A stretch of 64,000 bases of DNA from Tolypothrix brevis GSE-NOS-MK-07-07A (lineage in GTDB: Bacteria; Cyanobacteriota; Cyanobacteriia; Cyanobacteriales; Nostocaceae). The notes beneath the pieces were generated by a model. The model ran no database searches, was not told the origin of the DNA, and saw nothing but the letters and a program-made list of their open reading frames with translations. Shown here in pieces: positions 48,089-64,000 of the stretch. Location: the NCBI GenBank assembly GCA_019358985.1, contig JAHHIJ010000002.1, positions 124,001 to 188,000 on the forward strand, given 5' to 3'. The first letter of the stretch is position 1. The number at the start of each line of letters is the position of its first letter. A program made the position numbers and the translations under genes.

Positions 48089-48634
48089 TCACTTCAAATC
48101 GAGTAATCCTTCTTCTTTTAACTTAGGATTAAAGCGAATTTGAAGTTGCAATCCACGCGCTTGCAACACTTCTAAAATTTCAGCTTCGACTCGTCGCGCC
48201 ACATTTTTCATAATTTTAACTTGCGTCATCTCATCTATTAATGGATTTTCATAATTTGTTTGTTCTTCAGGTGTCATTACCGCTTTAGCATCAATTGGTT
48301 GCGTCCATTTTTCTTTTTGTTCGGCATTTCCCAAAGGAACACTGTTATTTTCGGCAATCCACGCATTTTCAATGTTTTCTAAAGTGGCGCGGCTAGGTCG
48401 CTCAATGGTTTGAACTTTTACCCAATAGCAATTTTGAGGTTGACGTACTAAATGCTGTTTCAGACTGAGATATACATCGCGAGAATAACCAACAAATTGC
48501 AGTACTTTTTCTTGATTCAAAATTGCATAAACTCCTATTTTACTTTGAAATTGTTCAGGTAATTGACCGTTATCGTCAATGTAAGCAATATATTCGAGAG
48601 TTGCTAAAGAAGAAATGTTTGTTTGGGTTGTCAT
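48089..48634 (-). CDS. GIY-YIG-like nuclease family protein
   Basis: The 181-residue protein has a GIY-YIG-like N-terminal part: KIGVYAILNQEKVLQFVGYS followed by RDVYLSLKQHLVRQP. GVY and FVG stand for the two motifs, with the conserved Arg after them. A later ENAWIAENN segment supplies the Glu. The C-terminal part (VARRVEAEILEVLQARGLQL) is helical. Similar proteins are widespread in cyanobacteria with unknown function. The Tyr of the second motif is Phe, so catalysis is uncertain. Confidence 0.8.
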   Translation of the reverse strand: MTTQTNISSLATLEYIAYIDDNGQLPEQFQSKIGVYAILNQEKVLQFVGYSRDVYLSLKQHLVRQPQNCYWVKVQTIERPSRATLENIENAWIAENNSVPLGNAEQKEKWTQPIDAKAVMTPEEQTNYENPLIDEMTQVKIMKNVARRVEAEILEVLQARGLQLQIRFNPKLKEEGLLDLK

Positions 48635-49381: not shown

Positions 49382-51985
49382 CTACATGACTTGCAAAATT
49401 TGTTTAATTTTGCTGTCTTGTCGCGGCTTCAATTTCTCTGGAAAATTCAACTCAATACCAATCTTGCCATTTGCCTGTTCTTCTACTGAGGAAATTTCGA
49501 CAACAAATTTGCTTTGGTTTCCCTGTTCGTAATTCAAGAGTAAACCAACAAGCGGTTTGAGAGTCCGCATCCTGTGAAATTCTTGTTGTCCAAGGATTTT
49601 GTTAGAAGATAAGGCTTTTGTGCTTTGTAATTCTAGCCGTAAACCTGTTACCCCTAGTTCCGTTGCTACTCCTTCAAATAACTGACCATCCCAGTAAAGT
49701 TGACCGATCGCACGTACCTGCTTGCGTACCTTCCTGCGTGTAGATGGTTGGAGATCGCGCAAAGAGCGAGTCAAAGTAGTAGCGAGGAATCCAAGAGAAG
49801 CGGCTGGCTTGTCTATATCCTGCCGCTTTTGAGAATACCATTCTCGCACGTCAGAATACAAAACTATAGTTAAAGCATCTAGCTGGGCGCGATTGGGATT
49901 GATAAAATCAATTGCCAAAAGCGTTTTTGTGTCATTAACTGGAGTCAAACCAATAACTCGCGCTGTCAGGTTAGCGCGAGCAGCAAAATCTCCCATCACT
50001 TCAATTTGGACTTCATCTGGTAAATTGGGCCAAGATTCCAAAGAAATCAATGCCCCAGTTTCTGAGATATTCACCGTTTCACCCCTGACGGTTAAGCCGT
50101 TACTATAAATCTCCACGCGTAGGTGTCGGTTTAAGCGGTGTGCTGTACGGACTTGCGGTTGTTCAAAGCCAACTAATAAAGCTGATGACAGCAAAATTAA
50201 GTTAAAGCCAGACCACAAAGTATTCACGAATACAGCTTGAGAATCCTCTGGACGTAGCAACAACCAATAAGGAACTGCAAGCAAAGAAGAGACAACAAAT
50301 AAAGTGACTATTAACAAACCGCGCATTGATTGCCAATCAAAGGTACGTTTGCTAATATTTGATCCTTTGTCGGTAACATTAAACGAACCGAGTTTAGGAT
50401 TAAGCAGCGCCAACATCGTCACCCATCCAGTCTGGAAAGCCATTGCAAATTCAAAAATTTCGTTCCAGAAAGAAAAGCGGACGTATTTGTAGATGATGTG
50501 GTTAGTAAAAAGCGAGAGGACAATATGCGGTATGGCGTAAGCCAGAGTTTCATAACCTAAACCCCGGACAGAGTTAACGCCAAATAATAAAAACAGAGTG
50601 GGAGCGATCGCATATACTAATCGTGGATATCCATACAAAAAGTGCGATGTCGCACTAAAATAACAAATCCGCTGGGGAATCGTTAATTTTAACTTGAGGT
50701 TAAACAACGGATTTTCCAATCGCAAAATTTGCGCCATTCCCCTAGCCCAGCGCACTTGTTGACCGACATAGGAAGAAAATGTATCTGGTGCTAAACCCGC
50801 CACCATAATTTTGTCGTAATATACCGATTTGTAACCCCGCGAATGCAAACGCAGTGCAGTGTGACAATCTTCGGTAACTGTTTCTACAGCAATTCCCCCA
50901 ACTTCTAAAGCGTGTTCCTTGCGGATCACAGCAGCAGAACCGCAAAAAAATGCAGCATTCCAAAAATCATTGCCCTTTTGTAGCACCTTGTAGAATAGTT
51001 CATTACCCACCGGAATTTTACCGCCTGTGAGCAAATTACGCTCGAAGGGGTCAGCGTTATAGAACCAGTGCGGAGTTTGGACAAACGACACTTTCGGATC
51101 GAAGAAAAAGCCTACGGTACGCAAAAGAAACTGGCGCGATGGAATGTGATCGCAGTCCAAAATCATGACTAAATCGCCGTCAGTTTTCCCAAAAGCGGTG
51201 TTGATATTTCCAGCTTTAGCGTGGTCGTTATTGTCCCGCGTCATGTGTATGCAGCCTAGTTCTTCGCACATTTGGCGGATTTGCTCACGTCTTGCACGCA
51301 AGGTTTCATGACGAGGATCGCTTTCTTTATATCTTTCTGGGCGACCATCATCAAGAACATAAACCTTTTTTTTCCCAGGAGCGTAATCGCAATTTATAGA
51401 TGCTAATACGGTCTTGCGGACAATTTCAACGTCTTCGTTGAAGGTGGGAATATAAATATCAACTTTAAACCATTTTTCTTCGGGAAGGGCAGCAAGACTA
51501 ATTGGCTGGCGTTCTTTGATTTTTAGGGTTTGAACGTATGCCAAGACCAAAGTTAGAACCGCATATAGTTCTGCGAAATACAACAGTAAGCAAGCGATAC
51601 TGTTAATCCAACCATCAAAATTGAGGGTGTAGCTTGTGCGGTAATATAAATAACGCAGTGTTGTTACTAAACTCAGCCACACCATGAATAAATGATAATA
51701 CTGGCTGGTTTCGGTAGAAGTTTCTTGCTCTTCTACCCGGACGATGAATTGACCAAGTAGTAATAAAAACACAGCTACTACCCCCTGCTGCCAAATTGCT
51801 AGTGGAGTAATAATTAGTGGCAGTGAAAGCAACAAGAGCAGCGCCACCACCCACTTCAACCCTTTTATGCCAATAGGAGCTAAAGCACGTTCAAAAAATC
51901 CTGGTATGGAGTCAACTAAGAAAGTGGTGATTTTACGTCGGCGATCGCCTGGTGAGCGAGGTGGTCTAAATGAGGACGAAGACAT
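49382..51985 (-). CDS. bcsA: Cellulose synthase catalytic subunit with PilZ domain
   Basis: BcsA polymerises UDP-glucose into beta-1,4-glucan and threads it through the inner membrane. The 867-residue protein has N-terminal membrane helices, a GT2 domain with VYVLDDGRPE (about 213), the DCD motif in MILDCDHIPS (about 277), TEDCHTALRLH (about 370) and QQVRWARGMAQIL (about 408), more membrane helices, and a C-terminal PilZ domain with RTAHR (about 613) and NISETG, the c-di-GMP-binding pattern. All catalytic motifs are intact. It is the last gene of the cluster, followed by a terminator. Activity is therefore expected to need c-di-GMP. Confidence 0.96.
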   Translation of the reverse strand: MSSSSFRPPRSPGDRRRKITTFLVDSIPGFFERALAPIGIKGLKWVVALLLLLSLPLIITPLAIWQQGVVAVFLLLLGQFIVRVEEQETSTETSQYYHLFMVWLSLVTTLRYLYYRTSYTLNFDGWINSIACLLLYFAELYAVLTLVLAYVQTLKIKERQPISLAALPEEKWFKVDIYIPTFNEDVEIVRKTVLASINCDYAPGKKKVYVLDDGRPERYKESDPRHETLRARREQIRQMCEELGCIHMTRDNNDHAKAGNINTAFGKTDGDLVMILDCDHIPSRQFLLRTVGFFFDPKVSFVQTPHWFYNADPFERNLLTGGKIPVGNELFYKVLQKGNDFWNAAFFCGSAAVIRKEHALEVGGIAVETVTEDCHTALRLHSRGYKSVYYDKIMVAGLAPDTFSSYVGQQVRWARGMAQILRLENPLFNLKLKLTIPQRICYFSATSHFLYGYPRLVYAIAPTLFLLFGVNSVRGLGYETLAYAIPHIVLSLFTNHIIYKYVRFSFWNEIFEFAMAFQTGWVTMLALLNPKLGSFNVTDKGSNISKRTFDWQSMRGLLIVTLFVVSSLLAVPYWLLLRPEDSQAVFVNTLWSGFNLILLSSALLVGFEQPQVRTAHRLNRHLRVEIYSNGLTVRGETVNISETGALISLESWPNLPDEVQIEVMGDFAARANLTARVIGLTPVNDTKTLLAIDFINPNRAQLDALTIVLYSDVREWYSQKRQDIDKPAASLGFLATTLTRSLRDLQPSTRRKVRKQVRAIGQLYWDGQLFEGVATELGVTGLRLELQSTKALSSNKILGQQEFHRMRTLKPLVGLLLNYEQGNQSKFVVEISSVEEQANGKIGIELNFPEKLKPRQDSKIKQILQVM

Positions 51986-52190: not shown

Positions 52191-54566
52191 TCAATCAGCA
52201 TCAGCCGTCCGCTTGATATACAACTGAACAATGCCATAAAGTAGAAGCGATACGCCAACAATGCCTACAGGTAGCAACAGCCAGTTATCCTCTATCAAGT
52301 GGGATGCTTTACTGAGGAAATTTGTATTTTCCACACGACGACTCGAAGGGGCACTCTGGAAAAACTCTAATTCATAGGCATCTGGATCGTAGGGACGTGG
52401 GTCTTTTTTATCACTACTAATTAACACCGTATCCTTTTTTAATTGGGAGAACCACGGATCTTGATTGAGGACTTGGCGTACACGTTCCAAGCCGGCTTCT
52501 GTCTGAGCAGTTAAAGCCAAAATTACGCGATCGCCATTCCACGGAGACAAGATTTGTTTAATCATGCCTTGTGCATCTTGCGGGGTTTGAATCGTACCTT
52601 GAGCAGATGCTCGCGAAAACGCCCCTTGCAAGTTAAACCCACTAGATTTACTAAACTCTGGTTGAAAAGGAAGTTTGTCCCGTGTCCCAATTGCCACCAA
52701 ATTATCACTATCCCGGACTGATTTGGATAATGTATCCACCGTGTAAACATCTAATTTGACAGAATTAGCTTGAGTCAACCGTCCTAAGCGTTCGCTAAAC
52801 GCCAGCATAGTCAAAATATCTGTATTAGAGGGATTTGTTGGGACGACAATTGCCGTTTTAGACAAATCTTGAGGTGCTGCAAACGGATAACCAAATCGCA
52901 GCAAATTCAAATCTGGTAATTGTACAGAATTTTCTCGTTTTAAATCAAAGCTAGTATCAGAATGTACAGTGCCTGTAAGTTGTTGATCTGGTGGATAAAT
53001 GCATTTTTCTCTATCAAAAGGTTCTCTCGCACTCATCCGGAAAAACACCTGAAGTTTAGAGTTTGGCTGAACCAAGTTTGGCGGCAAATCTACTTTCAGG
53101 GTTTTGCGAGTTTCTCCCCTATCTGAGTCAAGACGTGCCCCACCGATGAAGTTGTCATCGAGGAATACTTGTAAAGCAGAGGTTCGTGGATTAATCTGCG
53201 GACCATAGCTGTAAACTAAATTCATCGAACTGCCACGCACAAAACGTTCGTCAGGCAAAGCGTGGAAATCAATTTCAATTGCCGGCGCATTTGCACCACG
53301 GACAGTCACATCATTAAAACCCTCACCTGTTACCGGGGTTTTCAAGTCACTCAGTTTAAAGGAATTTGCAGACGGCAAATAACGAGGCCATTCGCGATCG
53401 CCTGGGGTTTCTACCTCCTTGACTTGACGAATTAAAACTACCTGACCGGTGCCCATTTTCCGCAGGTCTGGCTGCGCCAAAAACTGTGCTGCTTTGGCGA
53501 CTCCTTTGGCTCCATTGCCAGTGGCAATTAAAACTGGCGCACCACCTTCTTTCTTACTCGTTGCTAAAATTAACACCCCTGTGTCACTTGCTACGGGGGA
53601 GTTATTGCGATCAATAATTTGATTGCCGACTACCTTCAGGGGCAAATTTAAGGAAGCCAAAACTGGTTGTTCGCTAGGAGTACCAATGATGATTAATCGC
53701 TCATTAGGTTTGACATCCACCACATCAGATGACATCCTGGTCTGGATTGGGCGAAAGTCTGCTAGTCTACCCAATGCTGCTTGCAAACGAGCTGCTGCAC
53801 TCAACCAAGATTGACTCACTTCGCTAGGTTGCAAGTAGACAATTTGGCTAGTCTCTAAGCCGAGTTTGTCAAATAAAGGATAAGGATAGCGGTCAAAGTT
53901 AGGGGGAATCTCCGACCGTTGGTAGTTGAAGGTTAATTTAGAATCTGGCAGAACTTCCGTCCACAAGTCAGGGCTATTAGGATCGGTACATCCTTGGGTG
54001 TTACTCTGCAACGCTGCCACAGTCAGTTCGTTATAGTCTTGAAGTAATTTTGGGTTTATATTCATCAAGACTTGACCGACTTGAGACTGTTTTTTGTTCA
54101 GGGGTACGCTACCAATACTGGTGCCATTGACCAAGACAGTGAAATTAGAGCGATTTGCATACAGTGATGGCGAATGCTGAAAGCGAATTAAGGCTTTTAC
54201 CTTATTCAGGTTCCAGCCACGAGGACGGGTAAAGGCAAGACGAGATTCAGAATAAACTCCTCGCAAGCGCAAGCGGTTGCCTACTATTGGACTGCGATTA
54301 AATTCTAAGTTGTAGGTTTTCAGTTTCTTGTCATCATCAGTTTCTGTGTCAACGTCAGGTTTTGGCTTTTGCCTATCTTGGGCAGTTTTGGGATTGTTTG
54401 TGCTGTCAACTTCAGGTGTAGTTGCTTGTGCTAAGACAATTTGTTGTAAGTTACTTTCGCTCTTAGGTTTGGCGCTTAATGTTAATGAACAAGGCAACAC
54501 CAAAAAGCAAGAAGTAACACAAATTGCTTTTTTACTGATTTGGGAAAGGTTAAACAACTGCTTCAT
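52191..54566 (-). CDS. bcsB: Cellulose synthase periplasmic subunit BcsB
   Basis: BcsB guides the glucan through the periplasm and anchors next to BcsA. The 791-residue protein has an N-terminal signal (AICVTSCFLVLPCSLTLSAK), an acidic/proline spacer, carbohydrate-binding-like and flavodoxin-like domains (FNRSPIVGNRLRLRGVYSES; LIIIGTPSEQPVL; FRMSAREPFDREKCIYPPDQ), and one C-terminal membrane helix (WLLLPVGIVGVSLLLYGIVQ). Length agrees with other BcsB proteins. It lies between the GH8 gene and bcsA, separated from both by related repeat elements. Confidence 0.94.
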   Translation of the reverse strand: MKQLFNLSQISKKAICVTSCFLVLPCSLTLSAKPKSESNLQQIVLAQATTPEVDSTNNPKTAQDRQKPKPDVDTETDDDKKLKTYNLEFNRSPIVGNRLRLRGVYSESRLAFTRPRGWNLNKVKALIRFQHSPSLYANRSNFTVLVNGTSIGSVPLNKKQSQVGQVLMNINPKLLQDYNELTVAALQSNTQGCTDPNSPDLWTEVLPDSKLTFNYQRSEIPPNFDRYPYPLFDKLGLETSQIVYLQPSEVSQSWLSAAARLQAALGRLADFRPIQTRMSSDVVDVKPNERLIIIGTPSEQPVLASLNLPLKVVGNQIIDRNNSPVASDTGVLILATSKKEGGAPVLIATGNGAKGVAKAAQFLAQPDLRKMGTGQVVLIRQVKEVETPGDREWPRYLPSANSFKLSDLKTPVTGEGFNDVTVRGANAPAIEIDFHALPDERFVRGSSMNLVYSYGPQINPRTSALQVFLDDNFIGGARLDSDRGETRKTLKVDLPPNLVQPNSKLQVFFRMSAREPFDREKCIYPPDQQLTGTVHSDTSFDLKRENSVQLPDLNLLRFGYPFAAPQDLSKTAIVVPTNPSNTDILTMLAFSERLGRLTQANSVKLDVYTVDTLSKSVRDSDNLVAIGTRDKLPFQPEFSKSSGFNLQGAFSRASAQGTIQTPQDAQGMIKQILSPWNGDRVILALTAQTEAGLERVRQVLNQDPWFSQLKKDTVLISSDKKDPRPYDPDAYELEFFQSAPSSRRVENTNFLSKASHLIEDNWLLLPVGIVGVSLLLYGIVQLYIKRTADAD

Positions 54567-54599: not shown

Positions 54600-54834
54600 T
54601 CTAGGGGGATAAGAGGGGGAAAGGGTAAGGGGTAAGGGGGGAAAGGGTAAGGGGTAAGGGGAAAGGGTAAGAAATATAGAGTTATTTGAATAAATCCGTT
54701 CTTACAAAGGTTGACGGGACCCAAACCGAAGAAAGAGCCAACTTTGCGCTATTTTATTTCCATACCTTTCCCATGAACCCCTTTCCCCCTCTTAAAAACC
54801 CCTTTCCCCCTTACCCCTTAGCCTTTCCCCCTCT
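54600..54834. repeat. Repeat element in the bcsZ-bcsB gap
   Basis: Purine block, AAGAAATATAGAGT..GAATAAATCCGT, TATTTTATTTCCATACCTTT, then a pyrimidine block, as at 51988-52190. Its right part encodes the last about 14 residues of the GH8 protein (EEGERLRGKGERGF). Confidence 0.8.
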
Positions 54835-56102
54835 TCAACTTCTAGAAGATGCTTGGGAATAGAGTCAGGTGACAGCAATCCTAACCAAGCCAAGTTCTGG
54901 GTATAATAAGCTGTGCGATCGCCCCAAACTCCATCTTTGTATTGAGGTATCAATTTTTTCACTAGCAAGTCTTGAGCTAGTTTCGGTTCGACTAACCGCA
55001 TGGCAGCATAAAACATCGCGTATTGGGATGTAGCTTCATAATTTACTAATGCTTTCCCTTGCAAGTCTATGCGTGCCGGCAAACGTGATTGTGTCCGCCA
55101 TAGCTTTTGCAGGTGAGGCGTAGATGTCAGTAGATACCGCCGTGCTTGTGGCGAATTGAACCAAGCCGCATCAAGTGCTACCCGCCACCAAACTCGATAA
55201 GCATCAAAGCTATACAAGGTTTGAAGTGGGCTAGATAATGGCAAGGCTTGGAATTGACCTGTTTTAGTGTCTAGAGCTACCCAATCACTAGGTAATCCCA
55301 CCGCAGAAAGTCCCGTGGAAGAATCCAGCACTTGATAGCTGGTATCTACCAAACTCAACCAGTCATGTTCGCGGTCAATTTGGGCAAATATGCGAAAAGC
55401 ATAGGGGGTCAAATAAGAGGGATTAAGGTAAAGGGTTGATTCATTGGGGACAAATGCCGCAACGGGACCGGGTAGCAAATAGCGCTTGCCCACCATACCT
55501 GGAGCCGTTGAAAGGTTCCACAAATCTTTGAGTTTGATTTTCGCCAGTTCCAGGTACTCAGGACGATTCCAACGCCGTGAGGCAAAAATCAATGCCGTAA
55601 TCGCATCAATATCACCATCACTGGCAAAGTTGTTGTCGATGCTACCCCAACTACCATCATCTTTGCGTCCCCACTTCCAAACCCATAAACTGTCGGTGGC
55701 TTTACCTCCCTCTTGGCGTTGGAGGTTATTTTGCGACCAGTTTAAGGTTAAAGCAAAAGTTGCAGGATCATCGATGAGTACTGCTCGCAGCATGGCATAT
55801 GCTTGACCTTCACTAGTTGAGCGATCGCTCGCTTCATAGTCAATTACCCGTCCATCCCCTTGAATAAATTTTTTTCGGTAACTGTCCCAGCTTTGCGCTA
55901 ATAAGTCCCGGTTCGGGGTGGATTTAGGTAGAGCCGCTAAAAATACTGACATATCTTTGCTACCATCTACCGTTGAAAATTTTGCCGTCTGAGTTCTACT
56001 ATCCGGTGTTTGGGGGTTAACTACTCTTGGGTAATTACTTGCACAGCCGTATAAACTGAATGTGCCGACAATAACTGCCACGATAGAAAATAAATACATC
56101 AA
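54792..56102 (-). CDS. bcsZ: GH8 endoglucanase (BcsZ-type)
   Basis: The enzyme cleaves beta-1,4-glucan and is usually needed for proper cellulose output. The 436-residue protein has a lipoprotein-type signal (VAVIVGTFSLYGC, Cys near residue 20). GH8 motifs follow: the acid Glu in STSEGQAYAML near 94, WKWGRKDDGSWGSIDNN, and the Asp in ASDGDIDAITALIF near 161. Length is slightly above the family norm because the last about 14 residues come from a repeat element that supplies the stop codon. It would act at the outer face of the inner membrane or beyond, depending on sorting. Confidence 0.92.
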   Translation of the reverse strand: MMYLFSIVAVIVGTFSLYGCASNYPRVVNPQTPDSRTQTAKFSTVDGSKDMSVFLAALPKSTPNRDLLAQSWDSYRKKFIQGDGRVIDYEASDRSTSEGQAYAMLRAVLIDDPATFALTLNWSQNNLQRQEGGKATDSLWVWKWGRKDDGSWGSIDNNFASDGDIDAITALIFASRRWNRPEYLELAKIKLKDLWNLSTAPGMVGKRYLLPGPVAAFVPNESTLYLNPSYLTPYAFRIFAQIDREHDWLSLVDTSYQVLDSSTGLSAVGLPSDWVALDTKTGQFQALPLSSPLQTLYSFDAYRVWWRVALDAAWFNSPQARRYLLTSTPHLQKLWRTQSRLPARIDLQGKALVNYEATSQYAMFYAAMRLVEPKLAQDLLVKKLIPQYKDGVWGDRTAYYTQNLAWLGLLSPDSIPKHLLEVEEGERLRGKGERGF

Positions 56103-56413: not shown

Positions 56414-58819
56414 CTATCTGCCTCGACGTTGAGGATCTTCCCACGGGGGTTGAAAACCACGCCTTTGCAGAAAGTCTTCTTGAATTTCCTGCATTTGCCG
56501 AGATATATCAGCATCTGTGCTTCCTTGGGTGCGTTGTTGAATTTGCAGTTGTTCTAACTGTGCAAGCGCAGTCAAAGGTTGATCAAAAATCGCATTCAAA
56601 CCAGCAAGAGCGCGGCGTGCCTCTGTATCGTCCGGCTTTTGTGATAGCACCTGATTAAAAATTTGTTGTGCGGAATCATAACGCCCTTGTTGAAAGCGAA
56701 TTCCCCCCAAAGCTGACAAGGCATCAATGTTATCTGGTTGCTGCGCCAAAATATTCTCGTAAGCACTGCTTGCTTGCTTGTAATCGCCGATAGTTCGCGC
56801 TAACTCTCCCTGTATCAAGTAAGAATTAGGAGTGTTGGGAAGCTTGGCAATCAACTGCTTGACTCGCGCTTGGGCAAGCGTAGGATTGCGATCGGCAAGA
56901 ACTTGCACTAAACGCAGTTGCACCGGTAAATAATTGGGGTCAACTTCTGCCAGATAATTGTAAAGAGCTTCACGCCGCGCCTGGGCGGGTAACACTCCCA
57001 CCAAACTGTATAATTCTGGAGGAGTGTTAGTTGCTCTTTGTGTTGCTAACCAATTGTCGAGAACTGCTTCTGCCTCCCCTTGAGAAATCCTACGAGCCTG
57101 ATAAGCGATGCTAGTACGCCCAAGCTGAGTTGTCACATCTTGAGGATTCCGAGTTATTAGTTGGTCATAAACTGCCAAAGCCTCATCAAAACGCTTTTGT
57201 TGGAGTCGCACTCCCCCTAGTCCGCGCAAAGCAGCATCAGTAATATCGTTGTCTGGTTTGCTGATTAGCACAGCTTGGTAACGTTTGGCACTGGCATCTA
57301 AGCTGCCTTCCCGCCGCTCGATTTCTGCGGCTAACAACTGCGGTGCGAGGTTTTTAGTACCTTCGGGAGTGGCGGTGTAAGCAGCTAAAGCTTGCCTTGC
57401 ATTATTTAGGTCATTGCGCTGCACGTACATTTGCGCCACCCGGAAATTCAAAAACGGTGTGCTTACTCCCGACTGCAATATATTTTGGTATATCGGTAAA
57501 AAGTCTGGGTCGGGAGCATCAATATTTACCAAGGCGTTAGCTAGCTGTTGCAGTTCTACGCGGTCTGTGGGCAGAGGTTGCAATGATAAAGCCAAACGCT
57601 GTTTCAGGTCGTTTTTGGCGATAATTCCCAGTTGATTTTCTAAAGCTATCTGCCGTACTATTAGGCTTTTATCGTTGGGATACTGCACAGCTACTTGTCG
57701 ATAAAGTTGGAGTGCTGTTTGCCGTCCTTCGGGGAAGCCAGTAAAAACATCAGCGACTTCTCGCAGTAATGCGGGGGAAGGGTTGGGATTGTTTGCCAGT
57801 GTTTGACGGTACAGATTTAGGACTTGTTGTGTCAGAGTGGGGTTGTTGGTACGCTTGCGAATTTCATTAAGCGATCGCGCTAAAGGCAAAAAGGCATCCT
57901 GTCTACCTTGTAGCGGATCTAATACCGCTAATGCTTGGGTTGTCTGTTCATTGGCAAGATATGCTACAGCTAACTCTTTACGAGTTTCGATCGCTAATTC
58001 GTCTAGCTTTTTTGAGCGCTGCAACTGTGCTTCTAAAACCTTGACTGCACCACCAGGATTACCAGTTTCTCGCAAGGTGCGACCGTAAGCGACTGCTGCA
58101 TATCCGCTAATACTTTTTCCCGATGAACGGTAGCGGTTAAACAACTCCAACGCTTGAGGAAAATTTTCGCTGTAACTATAAGCTTGAGCTGCACCAATTA
58201 CTGCCTCTGATGAGGGGTTGTTTGCCAGGACAATTTTATAGTCGGCAATAGACTCACTTAATCTTTGCTGATAAGCATACAATAAAGCGCGGTAACTACG
58301 AGCATCGAAATCATTGGGATTTCGGTTTAATAAAGTTGTTAAAGCTTGAATCCCTTTAACATTCCATTCTGGGCGATAAGTCGCCATGATACCGACAATT
58401 TTCAGCGCTCCTTGATTGTTGGGATCTTGTGCGAGTACTTGTTGATAGCTATTCCAAGCATCAACAATTTTACCAGCGCGGTTATAGGCGATCGCTAATC
58501 CTAATCTTGCTTGCAATGATTGCGGTTCTTGCTTTAGGGCTTTTTGAAAAGCGGCGATCGCATCATTTACCCATCCCTTTTTTAACAACGCATAACCACG
58601 TCCAACTGCCGATGATGCCTTCTGTGCTTGCGCTGGAGCAATACTTCCAAAAGGTAAAACTATTACCGGGTAAGTGAAAAGCAAAAATGAAGAAGTCAAA
58701 ACACAAAGAGATTTAAAAGGTCGCAACGAAGAGTTGCCAGGGAAGAAGAAGGGACAAGGGAACACCTTCTTTCCCAGTCCCCAGTCCCCAGTCCCTTTAC
58801 CGTGTTTATGTTTACTCAT
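56414..58819 (-). CDS. TPR protein of the cellulose cluster (BcsC-like periplasmic part)
   Basis: The 801-residue protein consists of TPR units over most of residues about 75-790 (for example KKGWVNDAIAAFQKALKQEP; DPNNQGALKIVGIMATYRPE; ALSALGGIRFQQGRYDSAQQ). A signal-type hydrophobic segment (LCVLTSSFLLFTYPVIVLPF, ending APAQAQ) lies near residues 40-67. The N-terminal stretch before it (GKGTGDWGLGKK) is encoded by GGGACTGGGGACTGGG repeat DNA. There is no C-terminal barrel, unlike BcsC of proteobacteria; the barrel is encoded by the gene before it, with a 4-bp ATGA overlap. Probable role: periplasmic scaffold leading glucan to the outer membrane. Confidence 0.85.
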   Translation of the reverse strand: MSKHKHGKGTGDWGLGKKVFPCPFFFPGNSSLRPFKSLCVLTSSFLLFTYPVIVLPFGSIAPAQAQKASSAVGRGYALLKKGWVNDAIAAFQKALKQEPQSLQARLGLAIAYNRAGKIVDAWNSYQQVLAQDPNNQGALKIVGIMATYRPEWNVKGIQALTTLLNRNPNDFDARSYRALLYAYQQRLSESIADYKIVLANNPSSEAVIGAAQAYSYSENFPQALELFNRYRSSGKSISGYAAVAYGRTLRETGNPGGAVKVLEAQLQRSKKLDELAIETRKELAVAYLANEQTTQALAVLDPLQGRQDAFLPLARSLNEIRKRTNNPTLTQQVLNLYRQTLANNPNPSPALLREVADVFTGFPEGRQTALQLYRQVAVQYPNDKSLIVRQIALENQLGIIAKNDLKQRLALSLQPLPTDRVELQQLANALVNIDAPDPDFLPIYQNILQSGVSTPFLNFRVAQMYVQRNDLNNARQALAAYTATPEGTKNLAPQLLAAEIERREGSLDASAKRYQAVLISKPDNDITDAALRGLGGVRLQQKRFDEALAVYDQLITRNPQDVTTQLGRTSIAYQARRISQGEAEAVLDNWLATQRATNTPPELYSLVGVLPAQARREALYNYLAEVDPNYLPVQLRLVQVLADRNPTLAQARVKQLIAKLPNTPNSYLIQGELARTIGDYKQASSAYENILAQQPDNIDALSALGGIRFQQGRYDSAQQIFNQVLSQKPDDTEARRALAGLNAIFDQPLTALAQLEQLQIQQRTQGSTDADISRQMQEIQEDFLQRRGFQPPWEDPQRRGR

Positions 58820-61026
58820 CGAGCAGTTCCTCTGGGAGTCACATCAAAATAAGTTTTTACTCTGATACCGAAAACAGTTTCCTCGAAATTGTCTCGTCCC
58901 TGAACTGTGAAACCTAAGCGCAGATTGGGTAGAAATTTAAAATCATAGTATGCCTCCAATACATCTAGGGCATTTCCTCGCCGCAAGCTATCGTTGGATA
59001 GCCCACGTCCATAGGCTAAACCGAGGCGATCGTCTCTGGTAAACAAATCTAGAAGACTAGCACCGAAAACATAAGTATCTGCACCTCTACCCAAATCTCT
59101 GTTTTCGTATTTGCCATAGCGCCCAAAAAGACCTAATTTGATGTTGGGAATAAAGACCTCAGCGTTTATACCATACGCTTCTTCGCGATCGCCTTGTTGG
59201 ATACCAAAAATTGTGCGATCGCTATTTCTGGCAAGACTAAAGCTTTCTGGGAAGGTATCGCGAATCCCGGCATCGCGATCGGTTGCATAAGTACCCCGAA
59301 TAATCGCGTTACCGTAACGGATGCCGATTTCTCCGGCAAATCCATCTAAAGAAAAATCACTGAGTCTGTCTGACGATGAAAATACTGCCCCTTTCGCTTC
59401 AATATAATCGTTGACACTCCAGTTAACTAACAAACTAGGACGCGAACCAATTCCTGTAGCCGATAGTGCCGGATTTGTTTGAAAAACCGGATTAAAAAAT
59501 TGGCTTGCTCCATCTTTAGCAAAGCTGTTGCGGTCAAAATAAGATGTTAAATCTAACTGACCGACTACAAAACGTAGATTTGGTAATCCTCCAAGGGAAG
59601 TTGCAAAATACAACTCATTCACACTCAAACCCTCTGAGCGAGAGTCATCAAATGTATTGTTTCGACTCGTTAAATCGAAGGTTGCGCCAAACAAAGCTTG
59701 GGGTGACAGTGGATAAATTCCCGAAACTCTTGCCCGTGCTGAGTCATCCCCTCCTTGAGTTACATAGACACCTTCTAGGTATAAAGACGGTTCTCTTAAA
59801 GCCGTACTATTGAGCAGGGGGCGTGGTCGATTATTTGCTAGCTCATTAACCGAGCGTGGTGTAGTTTGTAGTGTTGGAGCAATCAAACTTGGAGGGATTT
59901 CTTGTCTGGGAGTTGTCGGAGTTACTAATGGTGGAGCTGCTTGAGAGTTGAGTATGGTTGTACCTTGAGTTTGGGGAGTGAGTTGTTGGTCAAAACTTGG
60001 TGTCACAGTCGCCGCAACTTGTGGATTTGGAGTGCCTAGAAGTGGCGACAGTGGCGCGATTTGGGGATTTTGTCCCTGATTGAAAGTTGCGATCGTTGTA
60101 CCTTGAGTTTGGGGAGTGAGTTGTTGGTCAAAATTTGGTGTGGTAGTCGGTGAAACTTGTGGACTTGGAGTGCCTACAAGTGGCAACTGTGGCGCGATTT
60201 GGGGATTTTGTACTTGGTTGAAAGTTCCGACTCTTGTACCTTGAGTTTGGGGATTGAGTAGTTGGTCAAAATTTGGTGTGGTAGTCGGCGCAACTTGTGG
60301 ACTTGGAGTGCCTACAAGTGGCGACAGTGGCGCGATTTGGGGATTTTGTACTTGGTTGAAAGTTCCGACTCTTGTACCTTGAGTTTGGGGATTGAGTAGT
60401 TGGTCAAAAGTTGGTGTGGCAGTCGGCGCAACTTGTGGACTCGGAGTGCCTAGAAGTGGCGGCAGTGGAGCGATTTGGGGATTTTGTACCTGGTTGAAAG
60501 TCGATGTCCCTGGTGCCGTGAATTCTTGGATATTTTGAGCGTCTGGTAATGGCAGCAGTGGGTTGGAGCGCGAGTTCTTGAAATCATTATTCTCACCCGC
60601 CGCTAACACTGGTAAATTTCTTTGTCTTTGTTTACCTGGTGTAAGTGCAGTAGAACGAGGTTTTGCTTTTGGGGTTTTTTCAGTAACTTGCTGCTGGATA
60701 AAAGCATTTTCCAGCTGGTTGATCTGATCTATTGGAGTTTGCTGTGATTTGAACACCGGCGCAGGGGAAGTCGCAACCGCTCCTGATGCTTGAGGTGGTT
60801 GCAACCTGGGCTGAGATTCATTAGTAGGTATGGAAGATTGAGGCACTCTTCTGAGTCTTTTTAAACCCACTTGGAAATCGTTAGATGGGTTTACTTGAGC
60901 TAAACAAGCATCATTGAATGCTACCACCCAGAATAAAGAGACTGAGGCAGTGCAAAGCAACAAATGAACCTTGTTTAACTGTCTTGGGAAAGTCAATTTA
61001 TCACAATCGAATACTGTAGGCTTCAT
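58816..61026 (-). CDS. Outer-membrane beta-barrel protein with a 46-residue repeat domain
   Basis: The 736-residue protein has a signal near residues 22-44 (ASVSLFWVVAFNDACLA). A low-complexity Pro/Gln/Thr region follows, with four 46-residue units at about 175-360. Residues about 405-736 form alternating amphipathic strands (SLYLEGVYVTQGGDDSARAR; IIRGTYATDRDAGIRD; LGLFGRYGKYENRD; LRLGFTVQGRDNFEETVFGI), like an OprB-type porin. It overlaps the TPR gene by 4 bp, so the two products are made together. I infer that it supplies the outer-membrane pore that is the C-terminal part of BcsC in other bacteria. It is the first gene of the cluster. A carbohydrate porin without export role is the alternative. 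Confidence 0.75.
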   Translation of the reverse strand: MKPTVFDCDKLTFPRQLNKVHLLLCTASVSLFWVVAFNDACLAQVNPSNDFQVGLKRLRRVPQSSIPTNESQPRLQPPQASGAVATSPAPVFKSQQTPIDQINQLENAFIQQQVTEKTPKAKPRSTALTPGKQRQRNLPVLAAGENNDFKNSRSNPLLPLPDAQNIQEFTAPGTSTFNQVQNPQIAPLPPLLGTPSPQVAPTATPTFDQLLNPQTQGTRVGTFNQVQNPQIAPLSPLVGTPSPQVAPTTTPNFDQLLNPQTQGTRVGTFNQVQNPQIAPQLPLVGTPSPQVSPTTTPNFDQQLTPQTQGTTIATFNQGQNPQIAPLSPLLGTPNPQVAATVTPSFDQQLTPQTQGTTILNSQAAPPLVTPTTPRQEIPPSLIAPTLQTTPRSVNELANNRPRPLLNSTALREPSLYLEGVYVTQGGDDSARARVSGIYPLSPQALFGATFDLTSRNNTFDDSRSEGLSVNELYFATSLGGLPNLRFVVGQLDLTSYFDRNSFAKDGASQFFNPVFQTNPALSATGIGSRPSLLVNWSVNDYIEAKGAVFSSSDRLSDFSLDGFAGEIGIRYGNAIIRGTYATDRDAGIRDTFPESFSLARNSDRTIFGIQQGDREEAYGINAEVFIPNIKLGLFGRYGKYENRDLGRGADTYVFGASLLDLFTRDDRLGLAYGRGLSNDSLRRGNALDVLEAYYDFKFLPNLRLGFTVQGRDNFEETVFGIRVKTYFDVTPRGTAR
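59949..60500 (-). repeat. Four 138-bp in-frame repeats
   Basis: Four consecutive 138-bp units encode 46-residue segments with the pattern TFNQxQNPQIAP ... GTPxPQVxxTxTPxFDQ ... PQTQGT. Copies 1-3 are very similar; copy 4 diverges more. They form the periplasmic linker before the barrel. Confidence 0.9.
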
Positions 61027-61256: not shown

Positions 61257-62042
61257 ATGTTCAGTCTTCATTTACCAGCTATTTGGCAAAAAATTAAAAA
61301 TTTGTCTGTGTATAAATCTCTCATGCCTACCTCGTTGATGTTGTTAGTTGTCACTTCTGGCTGTGTTCAAAAAGCACAAAACGAAGTACAGCTAGAAATC
61401 AAAAATCTAGAACCTACACAAAGTAATGGGGTATACACCGTAGTTGGAAACACAAATTTACCAGAGTCTAGTCGAATTACAGTAACGGCAATTCGCTATT
61501 TGCATTCACCAGAAGAACTTGGTGGAGGACCGTTGAATACTGAAGCAAATGTTAACCGCTCAATTTTGGATCGCAAAACTGTTGAAGTAAAGCAATCTAA
61601 ATGGCAAGCAGAACTGAATCTCTGGCAAGTCGCACCTAATGGAAATTTTCAGGAAGTCTGGCAAGCAAATCAAGGGTCAATGAAACTGACTCCAGATAGT
61701 GATGTCACGTTTATGGCTACTTTTGATCCTGAAACTCAGTGGCAAAGGTCACAGAAACCAAAGGTGAAAGAAAGAGATCCAGAACCTCGAAACATCGAAG
61801 GTAAGTTGCTTCGCTTTACTAACTCAGGTGAAAAATATGTGCAAACGAGTCAAATTTTATCTGTATCTTTGCCTGGGGGAAAAACAATACCACCTCGTCC
61901 GCAAGCGGAAAACGTTAATGGTGGCTGGGGAAATCGATATCAGATTCGACCAGAACCGCTAACTTCTGGAGCTACTGTACTTCCAGCAATCAAATTTAGA
62001 CAGACCAATGCTCCCCTATCACCTTCAGAGTTTCTACGTTGA
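61257..62042 (+). CDS. Putative lipoprotein divergent from the cellulose cluster
   Basis: The 261-residue protein has an N-terminal hydrophobic stretch ending in a lipobox-like VVTSGC (Cys near 36). The mature part includes an Ig-like or beta-rich segment (NEVQLEIKNLEPTQSNGVYT; VVGNTNLPESSRITVTAIRY; SDVTFMATFDPETQWQ) and a proline-rich C-terminus. I do not recognise a named family. The gene is transcribed divergently from the barrel gene across about 230 bp, so a shared promoter region is possible and a role in envelope or cellulose export is a guess from position. Confidence 0.65.
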   Translation: MFSLHLPAIWQKIKNLSVYKSLMPTSLMLLVVTSGCVQKAQNEVQLEIKNLEPTQSNGVYTVVGNTNLPESSRITVTAIRYLHSPEELGGGPLNTEANVNRSILDRKTVEVKQSKWQAELNLWQVAPNGNFQEVWQANQGSMKLTPDSDVTFMATFDPETQWQRSQKPKVKERDPEPRNIEGKLLRFTNSGEKYVQTSQILSVSLPGGKTIPPRPQAENVNGGWGNRYQIRPEPLTSGATVLPAIKFRQTNAPLSPSEFLR

Positions 62043-62291: not shown

Positions 62292-63158
62292 TTACAAAAA
62301 CTGTACCTCTTCAGTGTGTGGCGCATCATAAGAAACTCTAAATTTATCTGGCGTTTTTACCTCGCTATTTGTTTGTTGAGACATGATTCCCAGACTGCTC
62401 TGCATTTCCTGCATCTGCAACATCATTTCTCTAAGTTGTTTTTGCAACATCTCAAAATCTGATGCTGTTGGTGTGCTTTTATCTACAACAACAGGGGTAG
62501 GAATTTCTTGGGTGCTGTTTGTGTTTGTTTGAGCGTAACCCAGGAAAGTTTGAGCAGAAGCAAAGCCAGAAGCCGCAGTCACAGTTCTAGCGGTTGGAGT
62601 TGTTTGTCTAGTTGCAATTCTTCGCACAGTATTTACCGACTGTTCGTATGACGCTGGAGGTTTAGTTACAACAGGTTTAGTTACAACAGGTTGAGTTACA
62701 ACAGGTTGAGTTACAACAGGTTGAGTTACGGTTGCGCTCAAGCTTTTTGAATTTCCTGTTTGCTGAAAAGGCACTTCATCATCCAAAAAACTGGTGAGTC
62801 CAGAAACTTGCAATCGAGACTCAGACAATTTAAATTCTTGAAGTTGTGCTTCCTTTACTTCTAAGTGCTTTTCTAAGCCAGACAATTCTTGCTGGAATTC
62901 CTCTGACTTTCGAGTATGATACTGCCACCCACAGACTGCGATCACGAAAATACCAGTTCCAACACTCATTGCTGTTGCTAGTACTACGTACGGGGTAGCA
63001 ACATCTCGAAGTTTGCCATCAAAAATAGTTTCTTGTTCAAATTTGACAACTGTTTGCTTGTCGCCTAATGTCGCAAGGGGAAATGACATGGCTGAAAAAA
63101 CAGTGACAGCAGAGACTATCGACGGGAGGAAAAATTTTTGCAGTGCAGATAGAGTCAT
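62292..63158 (-). CDS. Membrane protein with coiled coil and VVT(Q/K)P repeats
   Basis: The 288-residue protein has a hydrophobic N-terminus (FFLPSIVSAVTVFSAMSFPL), a membrane helix near residues 55-75 (VVLATAMSVGTGIFVIAVCG), a coiled coil (EEFQQELSGLEKHLEVKEAQ), then a low-complexity region in which VVTQP/VVTKP occurs five times (15-bp units, about 62656-62730). A second coiled-coil stretch lies near the C-terminus (LQKQLREMMLQMQEMQSSLG). No family was recognised. The repeats suggest an extended, disordered linker. It is divergent from the GH5 gene and next to the cellulose cluster. Confidence 0.65.
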   Translation of the reverse strand: MTLSALQKFFLPSIVSAVTVFSAMSFPLATLGDKQTVVKFEQETIFDGKLRDVATPYVVLATAMSVGTGIFVIAVCGWQYHTRKSEEFQQELSGLEKHLEVKEAQLQEFKLSESRLQVSGLTSFLDDEVPFQQTGNSKSLSATVTQPVVTQPVVTQPVVTKPVVTKPPASYEQSVNTVRRIATRQTTPTARTVTAASGFASAQTFLGYAQTNTNSTQEIPTPVVVDKSTPTASDFEMLQKQLREMMLQMQEMQSSLGIMSQQTNSEVKTPDKFRVSYDAPHTEEVQFL

Positions 63159-63512: not shown

Positions 63513-64000
63513 ATGAAAAATATGCGTTATGGCTGTGGGAATTTGCCCCAGGTATATTTTTACAAGCAAAATAAAAAGAGTAAGCGCTACACCCGTTTTC
63601 AGAAACGCGGTAAATTGAGATTTGACAAGCAATTACTTGTATTTTTAATAACTTTAATAATTTTCCTGGGGGGGATTTTGACAAAATTGCCCTTATCTAT
63701 CGCCGAAGGTATTGCGTCCTCGCATCTTTGGGTTGGTATCGCTGCTAAAACAATACAACTACCACTTTCAACTCGTGGTGCCAAAATCGTTGATGCTAAA
63801 GGTAAAAGGGTTTTGCTTAAAGGTGTCAATTGGTTTGGTATAGAAACAAACACACACGCACCTCATGGATTGTGGCGGCGAGATTATAAAGAAATGCTAG
63901 CGCAGATTAAACAGCTCGGTTACAACTTCATTCGCTTGCCTTATTCTGTGCAAGCATTGCGAAGTACTGATGTAAGTGGCATTGATTTTAGCATTGGCAG
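63513..64000 (+). CDS. GH5 cellulase, N-terminal part (cut by the window end)
   Basis: About 160 residues of a glycoside hydrolase family 5 enzyme are present; the rest lies beyond 64000. A basic N-terminus (NKKSKRYTRFQKRGKLRF) leads to a membrane or signal segment (LLVFLITLIIFLGGILTKLP), then the GH5 start: LSTRGAKIVDAKGKRVLLKG, VNWFGIETNTHAPHGLW and IKQLGYNFIRLPYSVQAL. The catalytic Glu residues are not yet reached. A cellulase beside a cellulose synthase cluster fits processing or remodelling of the polymer. ATG at 63522 is an alternative start. Confidence 0.85.
   Translation, partial: MKNMRYGCGNLPQVYFYKQNKKSKRYTRFQKRGKLRFDKQLLVFLITLIIFLGGILTKLPLSIAEGIASSHLWVGIAAKTIQLPLSTRGAKIVDAKGKRVLLKGVNWFGIETNTHAPHGLWRRDYKEMLAQIKQLGYNFIRLPYSVQALRSTDVSGIDFSIG

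Follow-up and report, generated by a model that had tools for sequence, protein, structure and literature searches.

A TPR protein and a separate OprB-type barrel as a putative two-protein cellulose exporter in BcsB-bearing cyanobacteria

Results

A Five-Gene Cellulose Locus on the Minus Strand

The window, a stretch of 64,000 nucleotides from Tolypothrix brevis GSE-NOS-MK-07-07A, carries five co-oriented genes on the minus strand, in the order barrel, TPR, GH8, BcsB and BcsA. The leading gene (58816–61026, minus strand; open reading frame, profile and model) encodes a protein of 736 amino acids with a leader, a low-complexity repeat linker and a C-terminal OprB-type barrel. Its hydrophobic N-terminus is evident from the sequence, and a repeat of 138 bp (46 residues) runs through 3.9 copies in the linker (59958–60501, minus strand), in agreement with the signal peptide and repeat linker that the original prediction placed in this gene. 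The second gene (56414–58819, minus strand; open reading frame, profile and model) encodes a TPR protein of 801 amino acids, with a leader and a helical solenoid and with the barrel absent. An overlap of 4 bp had been claimed between them, and ATGA was indeed read at the barrel stop and TPR start (58816–58819, minus strand). Profile matches then gave, in the order originally described, a BcsZ-type GH8 endoglucanase (54792–56102, minus strand; PF01270, E = 4.6e-43), BcsB (52191–54566, minus strand; PF03170, E = 1.6e-110) and BcsA with a PilZ domain (49382–51985, minus strand; TIGR03030, E = 9.6e-212, above the cut-off). The initial observation at this locus is confirmed.

Downstream of bcsA is a small reading frame (48089–48634, minus strand) whose GIY-YIG match falls below the family cut-off. 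At the other edge of the cluster lies a GH5 cellulase with a CBM2 domain (63513–63998, plus strand), which is complete in a related locus (L061:15513–17231) and is kept at the cluster edge in several relatives.

The Barrel Belongs to the OprB Kind

In a structure model of its C-terminal domain, the barrel protein has 16 predicted beta strands (model residues 23–337; 58843–59787, minus strand), with a mean pLDDT of 78.5 and a pTM of 0.75. Conservation is highest in the loop that joins strands 5 and 6 (59446–59550, minus strand), where 19 of 35 residues are invariant compared with 71 of 345 overall (hypergeometric p = 3e-6). In 16-stranded porins the loop at this place is L3, which forms the constriction.

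The barrel had been called OprB-like, a description that held for the family and not for the window copy alone. A Pfam profile scan of the window protein matched no family, while PF04966 (OprB) matched 25 of 34 barrel relatives (E up to 10; best E = 4.1e-12), one of them (L082) scoring 27.7 bits against a cut-off of 22.9. Besides OprB, only NtrZ and DUF3658 were listed for the 34 relatives at E up to 10, so neither BCSC_C (PF05420) nor Alginate_exp was among them. Compared by HMM with both candidate families, as the original prediction had suggested, the barrel family sided with OprB: hhalign gave 97.2% (E = 4.6e-11, 234 columns) against 11 OprB porins of the same genome, and 7.9% across 36 columns against six BCSC_C barrels. 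This BcsC comparison set is small, comprising five of 181 plasmid records plus E. coli, and all six of its barrels do match BCSC_C in a profile control.

Foldseek searches with the barrel model placed OmpF/OmpC-type porins on top. OprB of P. putida came at rank 30, with the highest query TM-score (0.64) among the 50 best matches listed, and BcsC was not among these 50. A sequence-profile search of solved structures returned only chance ferritin matches. Because profile, hhalign and Foldseek results point the same way, we assign the barrel to the OprB kind and do not regard it as a BcsC barrel that has been displaced. Both of the OprB porins of the same genome that were scanned carry an SLH domain; the barrel protein has the low-complexity linker instead.

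The TPR Protein and Its Conserved Tail

The 801-residue protein had been described as having TPRs and no barrel, and TPR families were indeed its best matches. Its AlphaFold2 model is an all-helical, strand-free solenoid with 43 listed helices (mean pLDDT 84.5, pTM 0.60), so that structure predictions of the two proteins alone, which had been proposed as a check, returned a barrel and a solenoid. Foldseek of the TPR model retrieved generic repeat proteins and was uninformative. By prediction, then, the protein has the long periplasmic TPR solenoid of a BcsC.

Past the last long helix, the protein ends in the tail RRGFQPPWE (56438–56464, minus strand). The corresponding motif, [RQK]RGFQPxW, ends the TPR protein in all 76 listed loci with a TPR gene (76/76) and occurs in none of the 1233 other reading frames of the same loci. 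E. coli BcsC has no tail motif of the GFQPxW type; PMC11379886 describes its linker after the TPRs as starting with Trp766, a residue stacked against a putative cellulose ligand. Any likeness between the two would be an analogy of position.

Judged by eye, the leaders of the TPR proteins end in AQAQ-like sites. Upstream of its hydrophobic core, the leader of the window protein is unlike those of its relatives, and a short in-frame tandem GGGGACT-like repeat lies in the first codons of the gene (58770–58800, minus strand). An alignment of the TPR proteins covered 21 of 33.

Search for a Canonical BcsC

BcsC in well-studied bacteria is a single chain in which TPRs and barrel are fused. A separate complete BcsC elsewhere in the genome had been named as the finding that would count against a split exporter, and a profile search of the genome, run to E = 10, found no match to BCSC_C; a hidden second BcsC was rejected on this result. 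Within the host's class, a search to E = 0.001 matched BCSC_C in 7 of 388 genomes, each time partially (64–99 of 336 positions). Four exceed the Pfam cut-off; the barrel, too, is found in two of them (G433 and G461). All seven are provisionally taken for chance resemblance of barrel strands. One published study reports BcsC_C as absent from its strains and BcsB as rare (PMC4594306); another names a BcsC-type outer membrane protein in five strains, including Anabaena PCC 7120, where alr3754 is given as a BcsC-domain protein (PMC4365693).

The Barrel Occurs Together With BcsB Across Cyanobacteria

Across 388 genomes of the host's class, the barrel was found in 111, BcsB in 112 and both in 104. 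Among 291 genomes of the host's order the barrel was found in 31 and BcsB in 34; the 31 barrel genomes are the 31 genomes with strong BcsB matches, and the remaining three have weak ones near 1e-7. The 15 mismatched genomes of the class, judged by E-value, completeness and contig position, come down to weak matches, incomplete genomes or contig ends. Seven have the barrel only: one through a weak match (G348, 4.9e-14), three in genomes 70–77% complete (G527, G542 and G604), and three in genomes complete by estimate (G539, G584 and G594) where the barrel lies 2.3–3.6 kb from the contig start and the downstream genes are off the contig, with GH8 sitting at the contig edge in G584 and G594. The eight BcsB-only cases comprise six weak matches (E = 4e-11 to 1e-17) and two genomes 85–87% complete (G586 and G612).

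The two genes are also neighbors. After removal of nine fragment rows (G333, G423, G542 and G566), 141 listed barrel hits remained, of which at least 113 share their contig with a listed BcsB; BcsB was taken from the matches listed, and some of the other 28 may have one too. Lack of conservation beside bcsA had been named as a second point that would count against the split exporter in a barrel grouping with carbohydrate porins. Despite that kinship, BcsB lies 2.07–5.32 kb downstream of the barrel on the same strand in 110 of the 113 same-contig cases among the matches listed, and about 28 kb away in the other three.

A genome scan confirmed 188 loci, 80 of which were listed, all with cyanobacterial names. 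The gene order, whose comparison across cyanobacterial loci had been proposed, is kept in 61 of the 80, where barrel, TPR, GH8, BcsB and BcsA are intact with no split or missing reading frame. Many of the remaining loci are cut short by a contig end or flank; in three, barrel, TPR, BcsB and BcsA are present with no GH8 between them; and the surroundings of the barrel gave no TPR gene in four (TPR matches below 250 bits were dropped; in an earlier locus set, those weaker than 1e-25 were hidden). The barrel stop forms ATGA in 48/80 listed loci, overlaps by 1 base in 7/80 and does neither in 25/80. A second locus set, which partly repeats the first so that counts were not summed, has the 4-base overlap in 17 of 33 barrel-TPR pairs. 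The ATGA overlap is not peculiar to the window genome.

Barrel and TPR Protein Behave as a Unit

Copy numbers of barrel and BcsB (one, or two and more, fragments counted) were the same in 91 of the 104 genomes (Fisher p = 2e-16, uncorrected for relatedness). Twelve of the 104 have two BcsB and one barrel, including the one-contig genome G313, and one shows the reverse. Of 19 genomes tested, GH8 was found in 18, and in every one of these, including those with two systems, it was single.

In five genomes the second barrel-TPR pair lies apart from the second bcsBA, at a distance of 735 kb in G160 and on different contigs in G084, G042, G225 and G242. Trees were built from 34 barrels, 33 TPR proteins, 27 BcsB and 25 BcsA (locus L099 was left out), and in these the unlinked second pairs fall in clades matching the second BcsB and BcsA. 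There are two exceptions: the TPR protein, BcsB and BcsA of L067 fall on the clade-2 side, and so does the TPR protein of L098, but neither locus has its barrel there. Support for the larger barrel clade is 0.27. Barrel and TPR protein behave as a unit.

Several genomes (loci L081–L084, L086, L087 and L091–L094) have a second BcsA/BcsB set with its own barrel-TPR pair elsewhere; no second GH8 was found in this group.

A Divergent Neighbor as a Possible Third Component

Divergent from the barrel gene is a gene for a protein of 261 amino acids whose hydrophobic leader is followed by a conserved Cys (61257–62042, plus strand). We tentatively suggest, while regarding it as somewhat doubtful, that this is a third exporter part, a lipoprotein that would anchor or gate the pair and be loosely comparable to PelC in Pel export. 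The suggestion draws on 67 homologous reading frames in the 80 listed loci, on a leader Cys shared by 90% or more of 68 aligned sequences, and on homologues that also adjoin barrel-TPR pairs away from bcsBA (L082, L084, L086 and L091). Speaking against it, the gene is divergently transcribed, no homologue was seen in some loci that have the upstream flank (e.g., L066 and L071), and just 16 of the 67 homologues fit the lipobox pattern used; searches of Pfam, NCBIfam and PHROGs gave no family for it, and no solved relative was found. The neighboring protein of 288 amino acids (62292–63158, minus strand) has, by eye, a likely membrane segment and coiled coil; no family scored above its cut-off, and 53 homologous reading frames lie in the 80 listed loci.

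Discussion

A Proposed Route for Cellulose Export

The arrangement is genuine and extends beyond the window: the BcsB-bearing cyanobacteria sampled have what we read as a variant of the synthase-dependent cellulose exporter, made of a putative pore of the OprB type and a separate TPR scaffold. We think it probable (roughly 0.75) that the two genes encode the half of a BcsAB-type cellulose secretion system that acts at the outer membrane, with the job of BcsC divided between the TPR protein and the OprB-type barrel. The original interpretation as a split exporter is supported by gene order, domains, predicted folds, OprB kinship, co-occurrence, and the copy number and phylogeny that match BcsB and BcsA; from these we infer a physical complex and a pore role, and with them pore size, transport direction and the contacts or docking sites. 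Several observations run contrary to it: the sequence relatives of the barrel are uptake-type sugar porins; 12 genomes have two BcsB and one barrel; L067 and L098 differ between the barrel and TPR trees, where the larger barrel clade has its support of 0.27; four listed loci gave no TPR gene; and seven genomes of the class have partial BCSC_C matches.

For E. coli, PMC11379886 describes BcsC as docked on BcsB through its first TPR and proposes that the solenoid conducts the chain toward the barrel. Working in an analogous way, the free TPR protein would span the periplasm as a solenoid between BcsB and the outer membrane, docked on BcsB by its N-terminal end, and would guide the glucan chain. 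The GFQPxW tail may touch the barrel or the chain, at the place where BcsC has its linker, and so form the joint of the pair. The 16-stranded OprB-type barrel would be the chain exit across the outer membrane, and GH8 could clear stray chains as BcsZ does.

Going a step further, this cellulose exporter may have been built independently of BcsC, a proposition we regard as evenly balanced: a porin of the OprB kind, from a lineage otherwise for sugar uptake, would have become a polymer export pore together with a free TPR scaffold and perhaps a lipoprotein as third part, and the conserved L3-type loop would gate the glucan chain.

Alternative Explanations

The kinship of the barrel with OprB, a sugar porin family, would also suit a sugar porin for the cello-oligosaccharides that GH8 releases, with the chain exiting otherwise, for instance through a TolC-type channel as in the XcsAB model. 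It is also favored by the GH8 gene that follows in most listed loci and by the most conserved loop, which lies where porins have their constriction. While the barrel family agrees with this explanation, the pairing and the copy numbers do not. The partner of the barrel, by overlap and phylogeny, is the TPR protein; GH8 stays single in every tested genome in which it was found (18 of 19), even with two barrels, while barrel copies follow BcsB; and some barrel-TPR pairs have no GH8 nearby. We therefore consider the sugar porin unlikely.

That the pair is instead a broken BcsC, split by a frameshift, might be thought of since BcsC holds TPRs and barrel in one chain, and two annotated BcsC fragments of an acidobacterium are considered a pseudogene in PMC9693552. 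Here the barrel comes first and the TPR protein second, the reverse of BcsC, each with a leader of its own; the barrel is from another family than that of BcsC; and many genomes keep this arrangement. On these three grounds a broken BcsC is ruled out for practical purposes.

Implications

In many cyanobacteria, cellulose export seems to be shared between two proteins, one a helical scaffold and the other an outer-membrane channel resembling a sugar porin. The pair offers an answer to the question of export for the BcsB-bearing cyanobacterial systems (of the 388 class genomes, 104 have both barrel and BcsB), a testable idea with two candidate genes named. If it is true, scaffold and pore are separate in cellulose export, each open to study and engineering alone, and a porin-type barrel does the work of a polymer exporter.

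Comparison With Known Systems

The literature searched (titles, short abstracts and selected passages, with subscription papers mostly missing) contained no description of this two-protein exporter. A close comparison is proteobacterial BcsC, which shares with the pair a TPR solenoid and a 16-stranded barrel (predicted here) beside bcsA, bcsB and GH8, and the same place in the pathway. They differ in that BcsC is a single chain, TPRs first, with a BCSC_C barrel, whereas here there are two chains, the barrel gene first, with a barrel of the OprB type. With OprB carbohydrate porins the barrel shares a profile-level sequence family and 16 strands (predicted here), but in the genome it is tied to bcsB and a TPR gene.

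Cellulose systems without BcsC are reported for some alphaproteobacteria (PMC7112194). For Thermosynechococcus, PMC12430437 proposes an XcsAB-TolC model with an HlyD-type XcsB and a TolC-type channel, bcsB being absent. Like the locus described here, that system combines an endoglucanase with a PilZ-bearing cyanobacterial cellulose synthase; unlike it, the window has bcsB.

Alginate export employs AlgK as scaffold and AlgE as barrel, described as separate proteins for one polymer (PMC9734138). The pair resembles AlgK and AlgE in that scaffold and barrel each have a gene of their own, for one polymer whose identity is suggested here by BcsA. Compared with the lipoprotein AlgK and its roughly 9.5–10 TPRs, the TPR protein has 43 predicted helices and, judged by eye, no Cys at the end of its leader. 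AlgE has 18 strands and a family of its own (Alginate_exp), in contrast to the 16 predicted strands and OprB-type sequence of the barrel. As AlgK and AlgE are separate, a scaffold and a pore made as two proteins are known in principle.
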